From: Sorangium aterium
GTDB lineage: Bacteria; Myxococcota_A; Polyangia; Polyangiales; Polyangiaceae
DNA length: 64,000 nucleotides
Assembly: GCF_028368935.1 (NCBI RefSeq)
Contig: NZ_JAQNDK010000003.1
Span: 1,302,001-1,366,000 of the forward strand
Reading direction: 5' to 3'
The notes under the pieces are model-generated. The model saw nothing but the letters and a program-made list of their open reading frames with translations, was not told where the DNA came from and ran no database searches. Positions 5,738 through 13,054 of the stretch are shown here, one piece after another (within the stretch, counting starts at the first letter, position 1; each line of letters begins with the position of its first letter). Position numbers and translations under genes: made by a program.

Positions 5738-5859
5738 GCGTCACGCCGAGCGGCGATGCAGACGAAGCGCGTCGCGCTCATCGGGGCGTGACGTGAATGT
5801 GGCGATAGCGACGCGGTGCGGCGTCATCTCGACCGCGTGGTCATCGCATTTCCGCCGCC

Positions 5860-5865
5860 TATACT
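5860..5865 (+). promoter_or_regulatory. Probable -10 box TATACT
   Basis: TATACT lies 31 bp upstream of the lipoprotein ATG at 5897 and matches the sigma-70 -10 consensus well in very GC-rich surroundings. No good -35 is visible. A purine-rich AGAGGAGG just before the ATG would be the ribosome-binding site. Confidence 0.45.
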
Positions 5866-5896
5866 CCGCACCTTGCAACACCAGAGGAGGCAAGAG

Positions 5897-6913
5897 ATGC
5901 GGTTTTTGAAGTGTTTTTGCGTACTAGGTGTGTCCGCGCTGATGGGCTCGGCGGCGGGAGCGGGGTGCGGGGGCGACGACGCCGGCGAGACGAGCTCGAG
6001 CTCAGCAGGGGGGACCGGCGGCGGGGCTCCTGGCGACTGCTCGCCGACGAACCCGGTCTGCACGGCTGTCGCGTCCGACTGCATTGCCGTCCACGACAAT
6101 CAGGGGGCGACCAAGTTCGGTCTGCGGATGGCGCAGCTGACGGTCACGAAGCCCGACGTGCTCGCGGTCGGCTATATCGCCCGCCTTGTCGCCGAGGGCC
6201 TGACGATGAATCTGCCCGTGTGCAACTTGAATGGCACCGGGACCTTTTCCTGGTTGCTCGAGTTCGACACGGCGACCGGCAAGCTGCGCACCGGCGGCGC
6301 GATGCCCACGAGCGACCCGCTCGCGGGCTACTGCTTCGCCAACATGTCTGCAGGCGCGTTCGAGATCGCGCCGAAGGAGCTCGACGCCCCCCTGACCGAC
6401 GGCGCATGGAGCGGCGCGGCCGACATCCTGAACGTCCCGATCTTCCTGGACACGGGCGCGGCAGACGCGGCCGCCGAGCCGATCGTCCTGCCCATGCACG
6501 AGGTGCAGCTCACCGACGCGAAGGTGTCGGCGGACAACAACTGCATCGGACGGTACAACCGCGAGGGGCTCGACCCGATGGAGGCCTGCCTCCCCGGCCC
6601 GGACGGCGATCCCCCTGCGTTCATCAACGGCGGCAAGCTCACCGCGTTCATCACGCTGGAAGAGGTCGATCGGGTGATCATCCCCGGGATCGAGCAGAGC
6701 CTCTGTGTCGTGCTCTCGGGCGATATCGGAGAGTACGGCACCGGTGAGACCCCGAATACGTGCAAGCGCGACGAGAGCGGCAAGATCGTGCTGAAGGGCG
6801 ACTGGTGCAGCGCGACGAACTCGGCCGCGACGGACGACTGCGCCGACGCCTATGCGCTTGGCGGCGAGTATGCCGCGAGCGCGGTCAAGATTACCGGTCT
6901 CTGTCCGCAGTAG
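5897..6913 (+). CDS. Secreted lipoprotein of unknown function
   Basis: This is a 338-residue protein. The ATG at 5897 is preceded by a strong AGAGGAGG ribosome-binding site, unlike the longer open frame upstream. It begins MRFLKCFCVLGVSALMGSAAGAGCGG, a lipoprotein signal with cleavage before the Cys of GAGC. A Ser/Gly linker follows (TSSSSAGGTGGG). The mature part is rich in paired cysteines (for example NPVCTAVASDC, GDWCSATNSAATDDC) and looks like a folded extracytoplasmic domain. I recognise no family. It precedes two more lipoprotein genes on the same strand, suggesting a set of envelope proteins typical of myxobacteria. Confidence 0.75.
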   Translation: MRFLKCFCVLGVSALMGSAAGAGCGGDDAGETSSSSAGGTGGGAPGDCSPTNPVCTAVASDCIAVHDNQGATKFGLRMAQLTVTKPDVLAVGYIARLVAEGLTMNLPVCNLNGTGTFSWLLEFDTATGKLRTGGAMPTSDPLAGYCFANMSAGAFEIAPKELDAPLTDGAWSGAADILNVPIFLDTGAADAAAEPIVLPMHEVQLTDAKVSADNNCIGRYNREGLDPMEACLPGPDGDPPAFINGGKLTAFITLEEVDRVIIPGIEQSLCVVLSGDIGEYGTGETPNTCKRDESGKIVLKGDWCSATNSAATDDCADAYALGGEYAASAVKITGLCPQ

Positions 6914-7018
6914 CGCTTGCGGGGGGCTCTCCGGGGAGCGTACGATCTGTCGTGGCGTCCTGAAGCCCGCGCCCAGCGGGCGCGGCGCTGCGGGTCGTGC
7001 TCCCCCGGAGGGTTCCTT

Positions 7019-10000
7019 ATGCCCCGCCTCATCAAGCATTTCTCCGCCATCCTTGCTCTCCTCATCATCGCCGGATGCGCCGCTTCGGGCGGCGGGTGCG
7101 CCGGCTGTGGAATGACCCCCCTCCCCGCCGGCTTCAAGCCCGCGGATCGCATCGAGAACGCCGGCGCGGCGCGGCTCACGCAGTCGGGCGTCGAGTTCCT
7201 CGAGCAGAACCTGGGTGTCCTCGGGCGCGCGCTGCTCGGGGGTGGGGACGGCGGCGTGATCACGTTCTCCATCCCCAGGTCTTCTGGGACCGGCTACACG
7301 GTCTGTCCCGGCGGAGCCGACCCGAACGCGAGCCCGCCCAGGTGCACGGCGGAGATCGACGTGGGGAGTGCGGCGCTCCAGATCGAGCCGAGGACGCCGC
7401 ATAACCTGCGAATCCGGGGATCTCTGCCCGTGCGCCTGCAGAACCTCCCGATCCTGGTCAACCTGCTCATCACGGACAGCACGGTCATCGCGACCCTCAA
7501 CGGCAACGACGCGTGCCCGCCCGACGACCAGACCTTCACGAACATCAACCTCGACATCGAGCTCTCCGTCGAGATCGACGTCAATCCTCAGCACTCGCGG
7601 CAGGGCTACTCGCGCGTCAAGATCGTCCGGCTCGACATCGGCAAGGATCAGCTCGAGTCGAGGCTGCGGCTCAACTGCGGCGACTCCATCGCCGGCGACA
7701 TCCTCGATTTTCTGCGCCCCATCGTCCTCCCCCTCCTGACCGGCTCGCTCTCTGAAACGCTGAAGGCCCAGCTCGACCAGCAGCTCTGTCTGAAGGCGGA
7801 TCCGACGCAGGACCAGGCCTGCCCCGACGGCACGAACGACATCGGCGGCGTCTGCCGCTACGGCACGCACGCGAACGACGAGTGCGCCTCGATCCTGCTC
7901 GGCGTCGAGGGCCACATCGATCTCGGCCGGCTGCTCGCGAGCATCTCCCCCGGCACGCAGGGCGGTTTCGACCTCCTGCTCGCCGGCGGCGGCATGAGCG
8001 AGCGGGACGACGGCTCCGATCTCGCGTGGGGCGACCTCAACCCGGTCGGCAACGGGCTCACCCTTGGCCTTTATGGCGGCGCCGAGCCGGTGCCGACATC
8101 GAAATGTGTGCCGCTGTCGAACATGGCGCTCCCGGCGGGCATCCCGATTCCCGATGAGCTCGTCGCCAACACCGTCTCCGACTGGCCAGCCGACCTTCCC
8201 GGCCCTCACGTCGGTCTCGCGATCTCCGAGCGTTTCGCGAATTATGCCATGAACGGTCTCTACAACAGCGGTCTTCTCTGTCTCGGCATCTCCACGGAGA
8301 CGGTGCCTCTCCTCAACTCTGGCACGCTGGGGCTGCTGACCCCTTCCGCAAAGGATCTCGCGCTGCAGCGCGAGTCGCAGCAGGTCGCTGTCGTCATCCG
8401 CCCGCAGGCGCCGCCTCGGGTCACCTTCGGTGATGGCACGAACGGAAGTGACGACCCGCTGATCCGCATCCGGCTGGACCGGGCGAGCTTCGATTTCTAC
8501 ATCTGGTCGCTCGACAGGTTCATCCGGTTCATGACGGCGACGTTCGATGTGGACGTGCCCATGAACCTCTCGGTCACCCCCGAGGGTCTCACGCCGGTGA
8601 TCGAGGCGCTCAGGGTCGAGAACGGCGAGGTGACAAACAACGGGCTGCTCCGGGAGAACCCCGAGAACATCGCGGAGGCGCTGGGCGGCCTCCTCAGCGG
8701 TCAGCTCGGGCAGCTGATCGGCGGCGGCATCCCGGCGATCGATCTCGACGGGCCGCTCTCGGCGCTCGGGCTCTCGCTGGTCATCCCGGAGTCGGCCGAG
8801 GGCGCGGGCTCCCCCGGCCTGAGGAAGCTCACGAAGGGGCAGGACAACTACCTCGGCATCTTCGCGGCGTTCGGAACGACGGCGCAGCAGCGCTCGCTGC
8901 GGAGCGACACGCAGGCCGAGCTGAGCCGCAAGGAGGTGCGCGCCGAGGGGCTCCGCCTGCCCACGATGACCCGCGACAACGGGCCGACGGCGCGGCTCGT
9001 CATGAGCTCGCCGCTCGACGACGGCACGCGGGCCGTCGAGTACTCGTACCGCATCGACAGCGGCGTGTGGCGCCCGTTCAGGCGCGAGCGCGTCGTCGAC
9101 CTGCACGACGACTGGCTGCGGCTCCAGGGGCGTCACGTGATCTCGGTGCGATCGCGGATCGCGGGCGCTCCCCTGTCGCTCGATCCCACGCCGGCGACCG
9201 TCGAGATGGTGGTCGACGTCGATCCGCCGGTCATCTCCGTCGGCGCCGCGGTGGACGGCCGGGTGCCGCTCGAGGTGAGCGATCGGGTCTCGGACGCCGC
9301 GCGCGCGAAGGTGCGCGTGCGGCTCGATGACGGCGCGTGGTCCCCCTGGTCGACGGCGGCGGAGACGACGTCGGTGGACGTGGGCGACGCCGTCGACATC
9401 GAGGTCGAGGCCGTGGATGAGGAGGGCAACCTCGGCACGGCGCGGCAGGCGATCCTCCGCGGCCGGGTCCCCGTCGACCCGTCGGCGGGCTGCGGATGCG
9501 TCATGGCTGGCGGCGCCGGCGAGGCGCCGTGGGGCGTCCGCTGGCTCGGCCTCGCCGTCGCGGCGGCGGCCTTGCGGCTCGCGCGGCGCGGCGACCGGGG
9601 GTCGTCGCCTCGGCGCCCTGCGCGGCGCGGTGCGCGCGGCGTGAAGGGCGCGCTGGCCGGGGCCGCCGTCGTCGCGCTCCTCGGCTCGCACGCCGGATGC
9701 TCCTGCAGCGAGGAGCCGGAGGAGGTGGAACAGGGGTGCGTCGCGCCCGACTGCACGACGCTGGAGCACGGGCTCATCGGCGCGTACACCTCGGTCGCGG
9801 TCGCCGCCGACAAGCGCACGGTCTGGGTCGCCGGCTACGCGGAGGCCGACTGGCGCAACGCGTTCGCGTGGGGCGATCTCGTGGTCGGCACGTGGGACGG
9901 CGAGGCGGTCGCGTGGGAAGCGATCGACGGGGTGCCCGCGGAGCCCCCGGTCGACCCGGCCCGGTTCGACGTGAGCGGGTTCCGCGGGGGCCAGACCGAG

Positions 10001-11134
10001 CCCGGCGACGACGTTGGCCTCTGGACGTCCATCGCGGTGGCGCCGGACGGAAAGCCGGCGGTGGCCTACTACGACCGCACGAACCGCGCGCTCAAGTTCG
10101 CGCAGCGGCAGGGAGACACGTGGGCGGTGAGCTTCGTGCAGCAGGCGCCGAGCAGCGATATCGGCCGCTACGCGAAGCTGCTCTTCGTGAAGGAGTTGCC
10201 CGTCATCGCCTACCTCGCGATCGAGCCCGGCGAGGGCGGCTCGGTCACGTCGAGCGTCCGGATCGCGACCGGCGAGAGCGCCACGCCCGGGGAGGGCGCG
10301 TGGCGGTTCGAGGACGTGGCGAAGGACGAGGCGACGCCGTGCCGCGCGTTCCTCTGCGGCGCCGGGGCGAAGTGCATCCGGAGCACGGGGCGCTGCGCGA
10401 CGCCGCTCGCGGCCGGCGACTGCGAGCCGGGGTGCGCCTCCGGGCAGGCGTGCATCGACGACGGCGGCTCGCCGGCGTGCGCCGCGATCTCCGACGGCAA
10501 CCGGCTCGAGACGTACCCCGAGGCGATCGGCGACTACATCGCGATGGCGCCCGACGATGCGGGCGGGTTCGGCCTGGCGTTCTACGATCGCATCCACGGC
10601 GACGTGGTGATCGCGTCGAAGTCGATGGGCGCGTGGGAGACCCGCATCGTGGACGGCGCGGCGCCGGACGGGACGGACACGGGCGACGTGGGCATGGGGA
10701 CGTCGCTGTTCATCGATCGCGCTGGCGACTGGCACCTCGCCTACGCGGACGGCCGCTCGGAGGGGCTGCGGTACGCGCGGGTGAAGGGAGGCACGGAGGT
10801 CGAGCCCTCCGAGGTGGCGGACGACGGGCTCGGGATCGAGGGCGCCCCCTTCGAGGACGGGCAGCACCTCATCGGCGACGACGCGAACGTGTTCGTGACG
10901 GCGGCCGGGGAGGTGCGCATCAGCTACCAGGACGCGACGAGCGGGGCCCTGCGGCTCGCGATCGGGACGAAGAGCGGCGACGGCCACAGCTGGCTCATCC
11001 GGGCGATCGAGCAGGAGGGGTTCGCGGGCGCCTTCTCGCGGATCGTGGAGGTGGACGGGCGGCTGCTCATCGCGAACTGGTGGCGCGTCGGCGGACAGAC
11101 CACGAAGGGAGACGTGGCGCTCGTCGCTCCCTGA
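7019..11134 (+). CDS. Large lipoprotein, apparently two genes joined in frame
   Basis: This is one uninterrupted frame of 1371 residues from ATG 7019 (GGAGGG ribosome-binding site 6 bp upstream). The N-terminus MPRLIKHF...LIIAGCAAS is a lipoprotein signal. The first ~830 residues are an unknown folded region. At about residue 822 comes GCGC, then WLGLAVAAAALRLARR. This is the shape of a MYXO-CTERM sorting tail (Cys motif, hydrophobic helix, Arg cluster), normally the last feature of a protein. Yet the frame continues directly into VKGALAGAAVVALLGSHAGC (residue 875), a second lipoprotein signal. The remainder has a Cys-rich insert and repeated blade-like segments (WTSIAVAPDGKPAVAYYD and similar), suggesting a beta-propeller. 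A GTGA at 9641-9644 could be the overlapping start and stop of two genes if one base is extra upstream. Confidence 0.7.
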   Translation: MPRLIKHFSAILALLIIAGCAASGGGCAGCGMTPLPAGFKPADRIENAGAARLTQSGVEFLEQNLGVLGRALLGGGDGGVITFSIPRSSGTGYTVCPGGADPNASPPRCTAEIDVGSAALQIEPRTPHNLRIRGSLPVRLQNLPILVNLLITDSTVIATLNGNDACPPDDQTFTNINLDIELSVEIDVNPQHSRQGYSRVKIVRLDIGKDQLESRLRLNCGDSIAGDILDFLRPIVLPLLTGSLSETLKAQLDQQLCLKADPTQDQACPDGTNDIGGVCRYGTHANDECASILLGVEGHIDLGRLLASISPGTQGGFDLLLAGGGMSERDDGSDLAWGDLNPVGNGLTLGLYGGAEPVPTSKCVPLSNMALPAGIPIPDELVANTVSDWPADLPGPHVGLAISERFANYAMNGLYNSGLLCLGISTETVPLLNSGTLGLLTPSAKDLALQRESQQVAVVIRPQAPPRVTFGDGTNGSDDPLIRIRLDRASFDFYIWSLDRFIRFMTATFDVDVPMNLSVTPEGLTPVIEALRVENGEVTNNGLLRENPENIAEALGGLLSGQLGQLIGGGIPAIDLDGPLSALGLSLVIPESAEGAGSPGLRKLTKGQDNYLGIFAAFGTTAQQRSLRSDTQAELSRKEVRAEGLRLPTMTRDNGPTARLVMSSPLDDGTRAVEYSYRIDSGVWRPFRRERVVDLHDDWLRLQGRHVISVRSRIAGAPLSLDPTPATVEMVVDVDPPVISVGAAVDGRVPLEVSDRVSDAARAKVRVRLDDGAWSPWSTAAETTSVDVGDAVDIEVEAVDEEGNLGTARQAILRGRVPVDPSAGCGCVMAGGAGEAPWGVRWLGLAVAAAALRLARRGDRGSSPRRPARRGARGVKGALAGAAVVALLGSHAGCSCSEEPEEVEQGCVAPDCTTLEHGLIGAYTSVAVAADKRTVWVAGYAEADWRNAFAWGDLVVGTWDGEAVAWEAIDGVPAEPPVDPARFDVSGFRGGQTEPGDDVGLWTSIAVAPDGKPAVAYYDRTNRALKFAQRQGDTWAVSFVQQAPSSDIGRYAKLLFVKELPVIAYLAIEPGEGGSVTSSVRIATGESATPGEGAWRFEDVAKDEATPCRAFLCGAGAKCIRSTGRCATPLAAGDCEPGCASGQACIDDGGSPACAAISDGNRLETYPEAIGDYIAMAPDDAGGFGLAFYDRIHGDVVIASKSMGAWETRIVDGAAPDGTDTGDVGMGTSLFIDRAGDWHLAYADGRSEGLRYARVKGGTEVEPSEVADDGLGIEGAPFEDGQHLIGDDANVFVTAAGEVRISYQDATSGALRLAIGTKSGDGHSWLIRAIEQEGFAGAFSRIVEVDGRLLIANWWRVGGQTTKGDVALVAP
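9641..11134 (+). CDS. Probable separate downstream lipoprotein within the joined frame
   Basis: A GTG at 9641, in frame with the end of the large frame, would give a 497-residue protein. It starts VKGALAGAAVVALLGSHAGCSCSEEPEE, a complete lipoprotein signal with lipobox SHAGC. The mature part has at least four related segments of the type SIAVAPDGKPAVAYYDRTNRALKFA, suggesting a beta-propeller. It also has a compact Cys-rich module at about 10350-10480 (eight or more cysteines in some 45 residues). Its own signal peptide argues that this is the true protein unit. It overlaps a TGA in the neighbouring frame in a typical GTGA coupling arrangement. Function unknown; presumably surface exposed. Confidence 0.55.
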   Translation: MKGALAGAAVVALLGSHAGCSCSEEPEEVEQGCVAPDCTTLEHGLIGAYTSVAVAADKRTVWVAGYAEADWRNAFAWGDLVVGTWDGEAVAWEAIDGVPAEPPVDPARFDVSGFRGGQTEPGDDVGLWTSIAVAPDGKPAVAYYDRTNRALKFAQRQGDTWAVSFVQQAPSSDIGRYAKLLFVKELPVIAYLAIEPGEGGSVTSSVRIATGESATPGEGAWRFEDVAKDEATPCRAFLCGAGAKCIRSTGRCATPLAAGDCEPGCASGQACIDDGGSPACAAISDGNRLETYPEAIGDYIAMAPDDAGGFGLAFYDRIHGDVVIASKSMGAWETRIVDGAAPDGTDTGDVGMGTSLFIDRAGDWHLAYADGRSEGLRYARVKGGTEVEPSEVADDGLGIEGAPFEDGQHLIGDDANVFVTAAGEVRISYQDATSGALRLAIGTKSGDGHSWLIRAIEQEGFAGAFSRIVEVDGRLLIANWWRVGGQTTKGDVALVAP

Positions 11135-11341: not shown

Positions 11342-13054
11342 ATGAGAGCGACGGAACGAACGAGCAGCAACGCGGTGAGCAACGCATCTGCGCCATCCGA
11401 TGGAGCGCAGGACCAGGCCGGCGCGCCCGCGCGGCGCGCCGCGCGGCGGCGGATCGGCGTCCCGTTCTCTCTGTGGCTGCTCCCCGCCGCGTCGGCCGTC
11501 GCGGCGCTGCACCTCGCCGGGTGCTGGCCGCTGTCCTACGCCGAGGATTGCAAGGAAGACTCGAGGTACTGCCCCCCCGAGCCGACGGGCGGCGGCAACG
11601 ACCCTGGCCCCACGTGCGAGCCGGACCCGACCCAGGACGCGAGCACGGTGGTGGACCGGTGCGCGGTGTTCGCGAGCGCGGGCGCGGCGTCCGGAGGAGA
11701 CGGGACGAAGGCGAGGCCGTACGCGTCGCTCTCGGAGGCGATCGCGAGCGCGAACGGCAAGCGGGTGCTCGTGTGCTCGAGCGGCGTGTTCGAGGAGAGC
11801 GTCACGGTCAAGGCGGCCATCGAGGTGATCGGCGGCTTCGACTGCAACGCGGGCTGGACGTGGAGCCCGGCGGCGCGAAGCACCCTCGGAGGGCCCGCGA
11901 ACAAGGTGGCGCTCACGCTGACCGAGGACGCGGGCGGAACACGGGTGCGGAGCTTCACGATCAGCGCGGCCAACGCGACGGCTACGGGCGGGTCGTCGAT
12001 CGGCGTGGCGGTCGCGGACATCGACGCGCAGCTCGATCACGTCGACGTCATCGCAGGCAACGGGATGAACGGCGCGAACGGCGAGACGCCGGCGGTCGCG
12101 CAGGACGGTTCGAACGCGCTGGAGGACGTCTCGAGCGCGTGCCTCGTGGCGGTCTACAGCGGCCAACCCGGCGTGACGACGTGCGGGGACGGCGAAACGA
12201 GCGGCGGCGTCGGCGGCCTGGGGGGACAGCCCGCGGTGGATGAGGGGCGCGGGCAGACAGGTGGCGACGGCACGCCTCCGGCGGTCTCCCCGACCGAGCT
12301 CGGCCTCGGCGGCACCGGACACGGACAGACGGGGGGAACGGGAGAGACGACCGAGTGCAGGGACGGCGCGAGCGGTGCGAGGGGCGCCTCCGGCAGCGCT
12401 GGCGCAGCGGGCGACCGCACCGCGCTGACGCTGGTCGGCGTCAGCGGAGGTGACGGCGGCGCAGGCGTCAACGGGACGCGCGGTCAAGGCGGCGGCGGGG
12501 GCGGGGGCGCGAAAGCAGGACGCTTCTGCATGGCCAGCGGAGGTGGCTACATCGACGGCGCGGGCGCAAGCGGCGGCGGCGGCGGGGCGGGCGGCTGCGG
12601 TGGAACGGGAGGCGGCGGTGGCAAGGCCGGCGGGTCGAGCGTCGGGATCCTCAGCCTGGGGACCAAGCTGGCGCTGACCGATGTGACCATCGCCGTCGGC
12701 AAGGCGGGCAATGGAGGTGAGGGCGGGGGTGGAAGCCCCGGTGGCTCGGGCGGCATGGGGGGCAAGGGGGGGAGTCGCGTCGCCGGGTCCGGCTCGCTCG
12801 CGGGTTGCATGGGTGGCAAGGGTGGTGCGGGCGGCGATGGCGGCCCTGGCGGCGGCGGCCGAGGCGGCCACGCGGTGGGCATCGCCTACAAGATCACGCC
12901 CAGCCCCGCGGCCGCCGAGGTGCCGTTCACCGGAGGCACGGCTGGCAACGGCGGCTCCGCCGGGCTCGGTGGCTCCCCCGGGAGCGACGGCGCGGCCGGG
13001 GTGAGCGGCGCCTGCTGGGATTTCGCCAGCAACACGAGCTGCCCGCAGCAGTGA
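11342..13054 (+). CDS. Glycine-rich lipoprotein with beta-helix-like N-terminal half
   Basis: This is a 570-residue protein. After a long basic N-region (about 40 residues) comes the hydrophobic segment PFSLWLLPAASAVAALHLAGC, a lipoprotein signal. Residues about 75-260 contain DGTKARPYASLSEAIASANGKRVLVCSSGVFEESVTVK split over strands, which resembles the repeated-strand start of right-handed beta-helix (pectate-lyase-like) surface proteins. The rest is dominated by Gly-Gly-X runs (GGTGGGGGKAGG, GGSGGMGGKGG), interrupted by conserved-looking Cys residues, and ends CPQQ. It lacks a MYXO-CTERM tail. Likely a surface or outer-membrane-anchored structural protein. The Gly-rich half resembles mycobacterial PGRS regions in composition only. 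Confidence 0.7.
   Translation: MRATERTSSNAVSNASAPSDGAQDQAGAPARRAARRRIGVPFSLWLLPAASAVAALHLAGCWPLSYAEDCKEDSRYCPPEPTGGGNDPGPTCEPDPTQDASTVVDRCAVFASAGAASGGDGTKARPYASLSEAIASANGKRVLVCSSGVFEESVTVKAAIEVIGGFDCNAGWTWSPAARSTLGGPANKVALTLTEDAGGTRVRSFTISAANATATGGSSIGVAVADIDAQLDHVDVIAGNGMNGANGETPAVAQDGSNALEDVSSACLVAVYSGQPGVTTCGDGETSGGVGGLGGQPAVDEGRGQTGGDGTPPAVSPTELGLGGTGHGQTGGTGETTECRDGASGARGASGSAGAAGDRTALTLVGVSGGDGGAGVNGTRGQGGGGGGGAKAGRFCMASGGGYIDGAGASGGGGGAGGCGGTGGGGGKAGGSSVGILSLGTKLALTDVTIAVGKAGNGGEGGGGSPGGSGGMGGKGGSRVAGSGSLAGCMGGKGGAGGDGGPGGGGRGGHAVGIAYKITPSPAAAEVPFTGGTAGNGGSAGLGGSPGSDGAAGVSGACWDFASNTSCPQQ

Follow-up and report, generated by a model that had tools for sequence, protein, structure and literature searches.

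When two terminal sorting signals stand back to back in the middle of an open reading frame, does the frame hold one gene or two? The question is raised by a locus in a Sorangium genome (phylum Myxococcota; 13.5 Mb, 7 contigs), which we analysed within a stretch of 64,000 nucleotides, referred to as the window. An open frame runs uninterrupted on the forward strand from 6917 to 11134, with a likely start at ATG 7019 that gives 1371 residues. An earlier note, made from the sequence alone, had reported a MYXO-CTERM-like tail with GCGC and an Arg cluster, followed in the same frame by a second lipoprotein signal. We found the sequence as it described it: GCGC, a hydrophobic helix and an Arg cluster, then a second hydrophobic stretch ending in Gly-Cys (Table 1). 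The second signal opens with VKGAL directly after the 22-residue Arg-rich stretch, and the chain continues for 477 residues beyond C894 (544 beyond C827). The view that two terminal signals argue for two genes fails for this genome, which has one frame, but probably holds for function. Likewise, the GTGA at 9641-9644, which had been read as a possible coupled start and stop if one base of the G run at 9597-9601 were extra, is present together with that run; in the window, however, the frame runs on, and the exact overlap of this kind was found instead in a relative (G013).

Table 1. Positions of the proposed precursor and its parts in the window
Feature	Position	Strand	Basis or remark
Proposed precursor, single ORF, 1371 codons	7019-11134	+	Stop codon 11132-11134
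N-terminal lipoprotein signal MPRLIKHFSAILALLIIAGC; Cys codon 7076-7078 (C20)	7019-7078	+	C20 invariant in 34 aligned homologues
Putative first exported half: Cys-rich start, then region with weak BPI-like matches in few relatives	7076-9487	+	
GCGC signature motif (C825, C827) of the internal MYXO-CTERM-like signal	9488-9499	+	Conservation; TIGR03901 matches in relatives
First hydrophobic helix WLGLAVAAAALRL	9542-9580	+	Hydrophobicity over 88 junctions
Arg-rich linker RLARRGDRGSSPRRPARRGARG, 22 residues, predicted cytoplasmic loop	9575-9640	+	Net positive charge in 88/88 linkers
GTG (Val), sole in-frame start-like codon found in the window's linker; Shine-Dalgarno score -4.0	9641-9643	+	
Second hydrophobic stretch (9650-9697) and lipobox-like ALAGAAVVALLGSHAG-C; Cys codon 9698-9700 (C894)	9650-9700	+	
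Putative second exported half, predicted beta-propeller, sialidase/BNR or lectin type	9698-11131	+	Model and Foldseek

Two sorting signals within one frame

The first internal signal shares its parts with the substrates of MYXO-CTERM/myxosortase sorting (TIGR03901; MrtX of Myxococcus xanthus; MrtC), namely a short signature with an invariant cysteine, a hydrophobic helix and an Arg cluster. TIGR03901, the NCBIfam model for MYXO-CTERM, matched 22 of the 34 homologues at E values up to 1, and in five of the seven homologues scanned with coordinates the match lay at the junction, each time above the curated cut-off of 20 bits. The window's own tail gave no TIGR03901 match up to E 1 in the NCBIfam scan, and neither did the junction tail of L087, another Sorangium; the assignment of the window's copy therefore rests on homology. 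Where the signal departs from the known system is in its location, as it stands mid-chain rather than at the C-terminus, and after it come another signal and an entire, putatively exported domain. The same genome yielded at least 18 TIGR03901 matches (150 of 329 candidates scored), and all the listed ones are terminal, ending 0-16 residues before the stop. The feature in the window is a MYXO-CTERM-type signal in a non-standard position.

Such an arrangement exceeds chance. A hydrophobic stretch with [GAS]C within 120 codons was seen in 2 of the 54 frames behind the 18 listed terminal tails of the genome. Open stretches of 120 codons drawn at random from the window contained it in 211 of 8487 cases, whereas 88 of the 91 homologous frames described below carry it along with the first signal.

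The earlier note had proposed, among other readings, a polyprotein cut by rhombosortase. The polyprotein part is upheld by the sequence evidence, but the enzyme is probably wrong, because the tail is of the MYXO-CTERM type, the genome encodes MrtC, and rhombosortase is the partner of GlyGly-CTERM (PMC11980579). A search of the genome found 12 CPBP-family proteins, of which 10 were scanned, and a cognate myxosortase emerged in L112, which matched NF040594 (MrtC) at 294.3 bits against a cut-off of 195; the enzyme expected for the junction signal is thus probably the myxosortase MrtC. In M. xanthus, MrtX is required for the cysteine-dependent MYXO-CTERM cleavage of TraA, and is sufficient for it in E. 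coli (PMC11980579). A rhombosortase substrate was rejected, as NCBIfam scans of the window and the 34 homologues listed no GlyGly-CTERM family at E values up to 1. Two further CPBP proteases of the genome, L119 (G000:C6) and L120 (G000:C1), scored 83 and 72 bits with the archaeomyxosortase model MrtA (cut-off 200). The lipo-invert anchoring domain NF058595 was also considered and dropped, its matches being weak and compositional: they occurred in 8 of the 34 homologues (best shown 18.7 bits, cut-off 37), exceeded the cut-off in none of 20 genomes, and were found below threshold in 5 of 14 control genomes as well.

As to the second lipoprotein signal that had been claimed mid-frame, part of the claim stands: the signal at 9641-9700 has a basic start (the Arg linker), a hydrophobic core, a Gly at -1 and a Cys at +1 (G893-C894), the latter invariant. 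The lipobox itself, however, is non-canonical, since the -3 position holds His in place of Leu or a similar residue. Other Sorangium sequences also have His at -3 (SHAGC or AHAGC), and Leu, Val or Ile occupies this position in just 27 of 88 junctions, while the lipobox of distant relatives is often nearer the textbook form (e.g., LVLAAC, ILLAAC). At -1, G, A or S was present in 74 of 76 junctions detected with a rule that did not demand it; this rule misplaced the cysteine in L100 and L076, and the final rule demands one of the three residues. Judged by its residues, the second internal signal resembles that of a lipoprotein, though loosely. Inner-membrane lipoproteins of M. xanthus have been associated with Lys at +2 (PMC3222651). 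The second half has Lys at this position in 3 of 88 cases, so not every second half need reach the surface; the window has Ser at +2, and hence gives no hint of inner-membrane retention.

Fused and separated forms across the phylum

Each half was searched in 59 genomes, including its own. Each matched 42 of the 59, and paired matches lay mostly within one open frame of ~1400 codons. A phylum-wide search, with a single sequence from a same-order relative as query, matched 153 of 282 genomes at E values up to 0.001. From this list 40 stretches were fetched, and then 17 more, of which 16 were read; one of the 16 (G024) came from the 59-genome search and held no clear relative. The fetched loci were picked mostly for matches to both halves, and the sample therefore leans towards fused loci.

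Whether homologues are two genes or one had been named in the earlier note as a check of its two-gene reading, and the outcome went against that reading: 91 ORFs run as single frames past the junction (the window plus 38, 41 and 11 by set), and some relatives have two genes. By a fixed rule (in order, a Cys, a helix, three or more basic residues out of five, another helix and [GAS]C), 88 of the 91 carry both signals, and the three that fail it (L180, L199, L202) look alike by eye, with weaker basic clusters. Some of the 91 end at contig ends, three of them (L071, L179, L233) being cut after the second signal. Outside this set are the contig-cut loci L107, L108, L109, L021, L030, L047 and L231, the locus L245, the separated genes L082, L083, L230 and L244, and the upper-only paralogues that we also observed (L075, L079, L232).

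The alignment of 34 homologues shows no change at C20 or C894 and at least 90% conservation at C825, C827 and G893; these positions stand out from a stretch whose conservation is otherwise poor. From one cysteine site to the other the distance ranges between 39 and 96 residues. All 88 linkers are net positive, as expected for a cytoplasmic loop, although this is partly built in, the rule demanding a basic cluster. The junction is a real and conserved feature of one gene, which, going by these sequences, would encode a double surface-protein precursor.

These homologues also bear on the idea that a base error or a recent fusion joined the halves, as the G5 run and the GTGA in the window could suggest. 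The frame is open through the junction, with linkers of differing length, in the same-genus genomes that hold both halves on one contig (G001-G004; contig ends interrupt G005) and in relatives further away, and the fused form recurs in genomes of the same order, the same class and the same phylum. We therefore rejected a sequencing or assembly error, or a fusion private to the strain, as having next to no probability.

In three genomes the halves are adjacent genes, with the break falling precisely where the Arg cluster gives way to the second signal. The two genes overlap as TGATG in G030 and as GTGA in G013, and in G252, where the pair lies on a 1.1 Mb contig, RRRRRGEDQ-stop closes the upper gene and the lower one opens with MSKTRLALLAALAALAFGC. 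In G127 the halves lie on different contigs, the upper gene ending alone and the lower carrying LVALGGC and a possible GTG start. These assemblies are all draft (G030 ~140, G013 760, G127 380 and G252 100 contigs), so a frame error may account for single separated cases. In a tree of 94 upper halves, in which G127 was not reported, G252 is grouped with a fused form from the same genus (support 1.0), G013 lies in a clade otherwise made of fused forms (0.88), and G030 is placed beside the fused L100 (0.75). That these three lie among fused relatives speaks once more against a recent fusion and suggests, from the tree, that the separations were separate events; we infer that fusion is the older state.

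The two halves differ in how well they could be modelled. The second gave a model with pLDDT 66.6 and pTM 0.76, whose best Foldseek match was 5mul (E 1.7e-8, TM 0.54/0.66), and it is predicted to be a beta-propeller near sialidase-like hydrolases and lectins. The model of the first half had a mean pLDDT of 34.3 and was confident in its last part only, with beta strands predicted near the end; LBP_BPI_CETP matched weakly in 2 of the 34 homologues (best E 0.043) and its C-terminal domain in one (0.0093), and a PDB sequence search with the family profile returned a single weak match (E 0.067).

The neighbourhood of the gene was also inspected. Just upstream, in the same direction, lies a lipoprotein-like gene (5816-6913) that is found beside the locus in all four of the named Sorangium relatives tested. 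Downstream, a glycine-rich lipoprotein-like ORF (11342-13054) has flank matches in L062 and L064, and none in L063 or L066.

Proposed maturation of the precursor

How would one chain with such a junction mature? The explanation that we favour, and hold to be likely on the sequence evidence, is a polyprotein, i.e., a single precursor from which myxosortase and signal peptidase II would release two lipoproteins of the surface or envelope after export. In this scheme, Sec would export the chain via its N-terminal signal, the first internal helix would stop transfer and leave the Arg-rich linker in the cytoplasm, and the second helix would restart transfer, so that the second half would be exported too. 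MrtC would then cut after the motif cysteine, leaving the first half lipid-anchored, while lipidation followed by a signal peptidase II cut before C894 would turn the second half into an N-terminal lipoprotein. A helix-loop-helix spacer would be left in the inner membrane, and the outcome would be two anchored proteins, 1:1, from one message. The junction structure can be read from the sequence, while both cuts and the final locations are what we infer; export is probably followed by cleavage of the chain into two anchored proteins, because the junction is kept across the phylum and recurs in unrelated genes. Among the findings that count against the scheme are the three loci that fail the junction rule, the tails of the window and L087, which TIGR03901 misses, and position -3, which is His in the window and holds L, V or I in the minority of junctions given above.

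The last of these bears on an uncleaved hairpin, in which the two helices would form a stable two-span anchor and hold the connected halves in the inner membrane. A pair of helices linked by a positively charged loop would fit such an anchor, and so would the non-canonical second lipobox of the window. For a hairpin, however, there is no need of an invariant cysteine where helix 2 reaches the outer side, or of a MYXO-CTERM motif ahead of helix 1; moreover, the halves are separate genes in four genomes, and the window's genome encodes MrtC as well as terminal MYXO-CTERM proteins. We consider this arrangement unlikely. A single cut, by either myxosortase or signal peptidase II, with the other half keeping its helix anchor, is rather unlikely: the degenerate second signal of Sorangium (SHAGC or AHAGC) and the failure of TIGR03901 to detect the window and L087 would agree with it, but both cysteine sites are conserved together.

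The second half could also be made separately, by a ribosome restarting at GTG 9641 or its equivalent. This GTG is placed where a lipoprotein start would be expected, and a good Shine-Dalgarno sequence (-6 kcal/mol or better) was found in 7 of 88 linkers, including that of L087, which scores -9.7 at a GTG 19 codons before the Cys, the same placing as in the window. We sought in-frame start codons from the Arg cluster up to 11 residues short of the Cys, and in 38 of the 88 linkers, including those of the Sorangium relatives L085 and L086, there was no ATG, GTG or TTG. For the remaining linkers the best Shine-Dalgarno energy had a median of -3.1, whereas upstream starts, scored in 31 loci including the truncated L092, averaged -7.3; the test with the 31 upstream starts used a first junction rule that missed some loci, the window among them, and the 88-linker test uses another rule. 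Internal initiation was rejected as a general explanation on account of the start-less linkers, and as the upper frame has no stop, the full-length chain would be made anyway. We regard it as very improbable.

The same junction in unrelated genes

A profile of 63 positions was built from 19 junctions, the window's included, and searched in 30 genomes. At least 15 matches lay in other ORFs, each stop-free and running from profile position 5 or earlier to 56 or later. One of them, L285, has merely 93 codons before the junction; a match in G010:C10, covering positions 6-56, falls just outside this range and looks type I-like. In 13 of the 15 listed matches the second helix ends in Cys, and the site is type I-like in L293 and L294. 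The second halves of the 15 fall into eight groups, nine with the window's family (BLAST E < 1e-8 over > 80 residues).

A Pfam scan covered nine of the 15 ORFs. The 1534-codon ORF of L283 (G042:C1142) has a GH15-like domain before the junction and an alpha-amylase domain after it, the latter with a near-threshold neopullulanase-like C-terminal match; it is predicted from sequence to hold two starch enzymes in one precursor. The domains before and after the junction were MopE with a sub-threshold VWA match and MopE with FGE-sulfatase in L284, nidogen-like and MopE in L287, FG-GAP and OmpA in L293, and MopE on both sides in L290; L289 had a subtilase domain before and nothing after, L286 nothing before and a GDSL lipase after, and L280, L288 and L294 gave nothing or sub-threshold matches in Pfam. 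Seven of the matches (L281, L282, L284, L285, L290, L291, L292), along with L300 and L328, form a second two-in-one family, marked by a C-x-[VT]-[DE]-x-[FY]-C stretch after the second Cys; MopE motifs were seen in both scanned members (L284, L290).

A further search matched 12 of 13 chosen genomes and added more cases, including some in the single-contig genomes G048, G133 and G193; L310, at a contig edge, was left out. In the window's own genome, among the best 5 of 11 profile matches, only the window's locus spans the whole junction.

Two profile matches, L295 (G014:C212) and L296 (G044:C128), are split by a stop. In each, one gene ends in a MYXO-CTERM-like tail and a second gene, opening with a lipoprotein-like signal, begins within a few bases of it; on their sequence features these are candidate unfused versions of the junction in other families.

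With somewhat less assurance than we have for the single locus, we lean towards the view that Myxococcota possess a polyprotein device of general use. This 'sort-and-restart' junction would be composed of a MYXO-CTERM signal, a cytoplasmic Arg loop and a second signal of the lipoprotein or type I kind. Such a device would yield two exported proteins per message at a fixed 1:1 ratio, matured by myxosortase and then by signal peptidase II or I; it would have emerged in no fewer than nine protein pairs unrelated to each other, including some whose partners have related activities (GH15 and alpha-amylase), and would interconvert with overlapping gene pairs. Polyproteins are unusual in bacteria. 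If the proposal is true, it describes a widespread, recurrent class of them that can be predicted from sequence: a C-terminal sorting signal acts mid-chain, and export is restarted by a second signal peptide. The annotation of such genes as single proteins of ~1400 residues is then probably misleading. The junction further offers a test case for questions left open by the authors of the myxosortase study, namely the modification of the motif Cys and the dependence of the cut on lipidation by another enzyme (PMC11980579), and the two products, being very unequal in size, could be followed separately.

Internal sorting signals as such are already known. MXAN_5598 has, like the window's gene, an internal MYXO-CTERM, there placed between an adhesin region and beta-barrel and OmpA domains, and its authors suggest that the N-terminal part is processed and that two genes were fused (PMC11980579, mBio 2025). 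In the available text of that paper, internal MYXO-CTERM signals in ORFs are rare cases and an internal myxosortase cut is a proposal, not a result; MXAN_5598 differs from the present gene in being such a rare case, described there with no second signal peptide, phylum-wide family or recurrent junction. HVO_0405 of Haloferax volcanii, also a fused protein, bears its sorting signal centrally, as a tripartite signal whose cleavage is reported to need the ArtA pathway (PMC7157517); it is, however, archaeal, depends on another enzyme (an archaeosortase) and is a strain-specific fusion, and the parts of the paper available mention no second lipobox. In the TraA-TraB pair of M. xanthus, the gene of a MYXO-CTERM protein overlaps that of its partner envelope protein, as two overlapping ORFs in contrast to the one ORF here (PMC11980579). 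Among open-licence PubMed Central papers we found no description of a MYXO-CTERM signal directly before a second signal peptide, of a phylum-wide family of this kind, or of its recurrence; the junction described here is a conserved and recurrent version with two signals.

In three loci (L293, L309, L329) we also observed a type I-like signal behind an internal signal of MYXO-CTERM-like character, with an OmpA domain in L293, a plan that resembles that of MXAN_5598.
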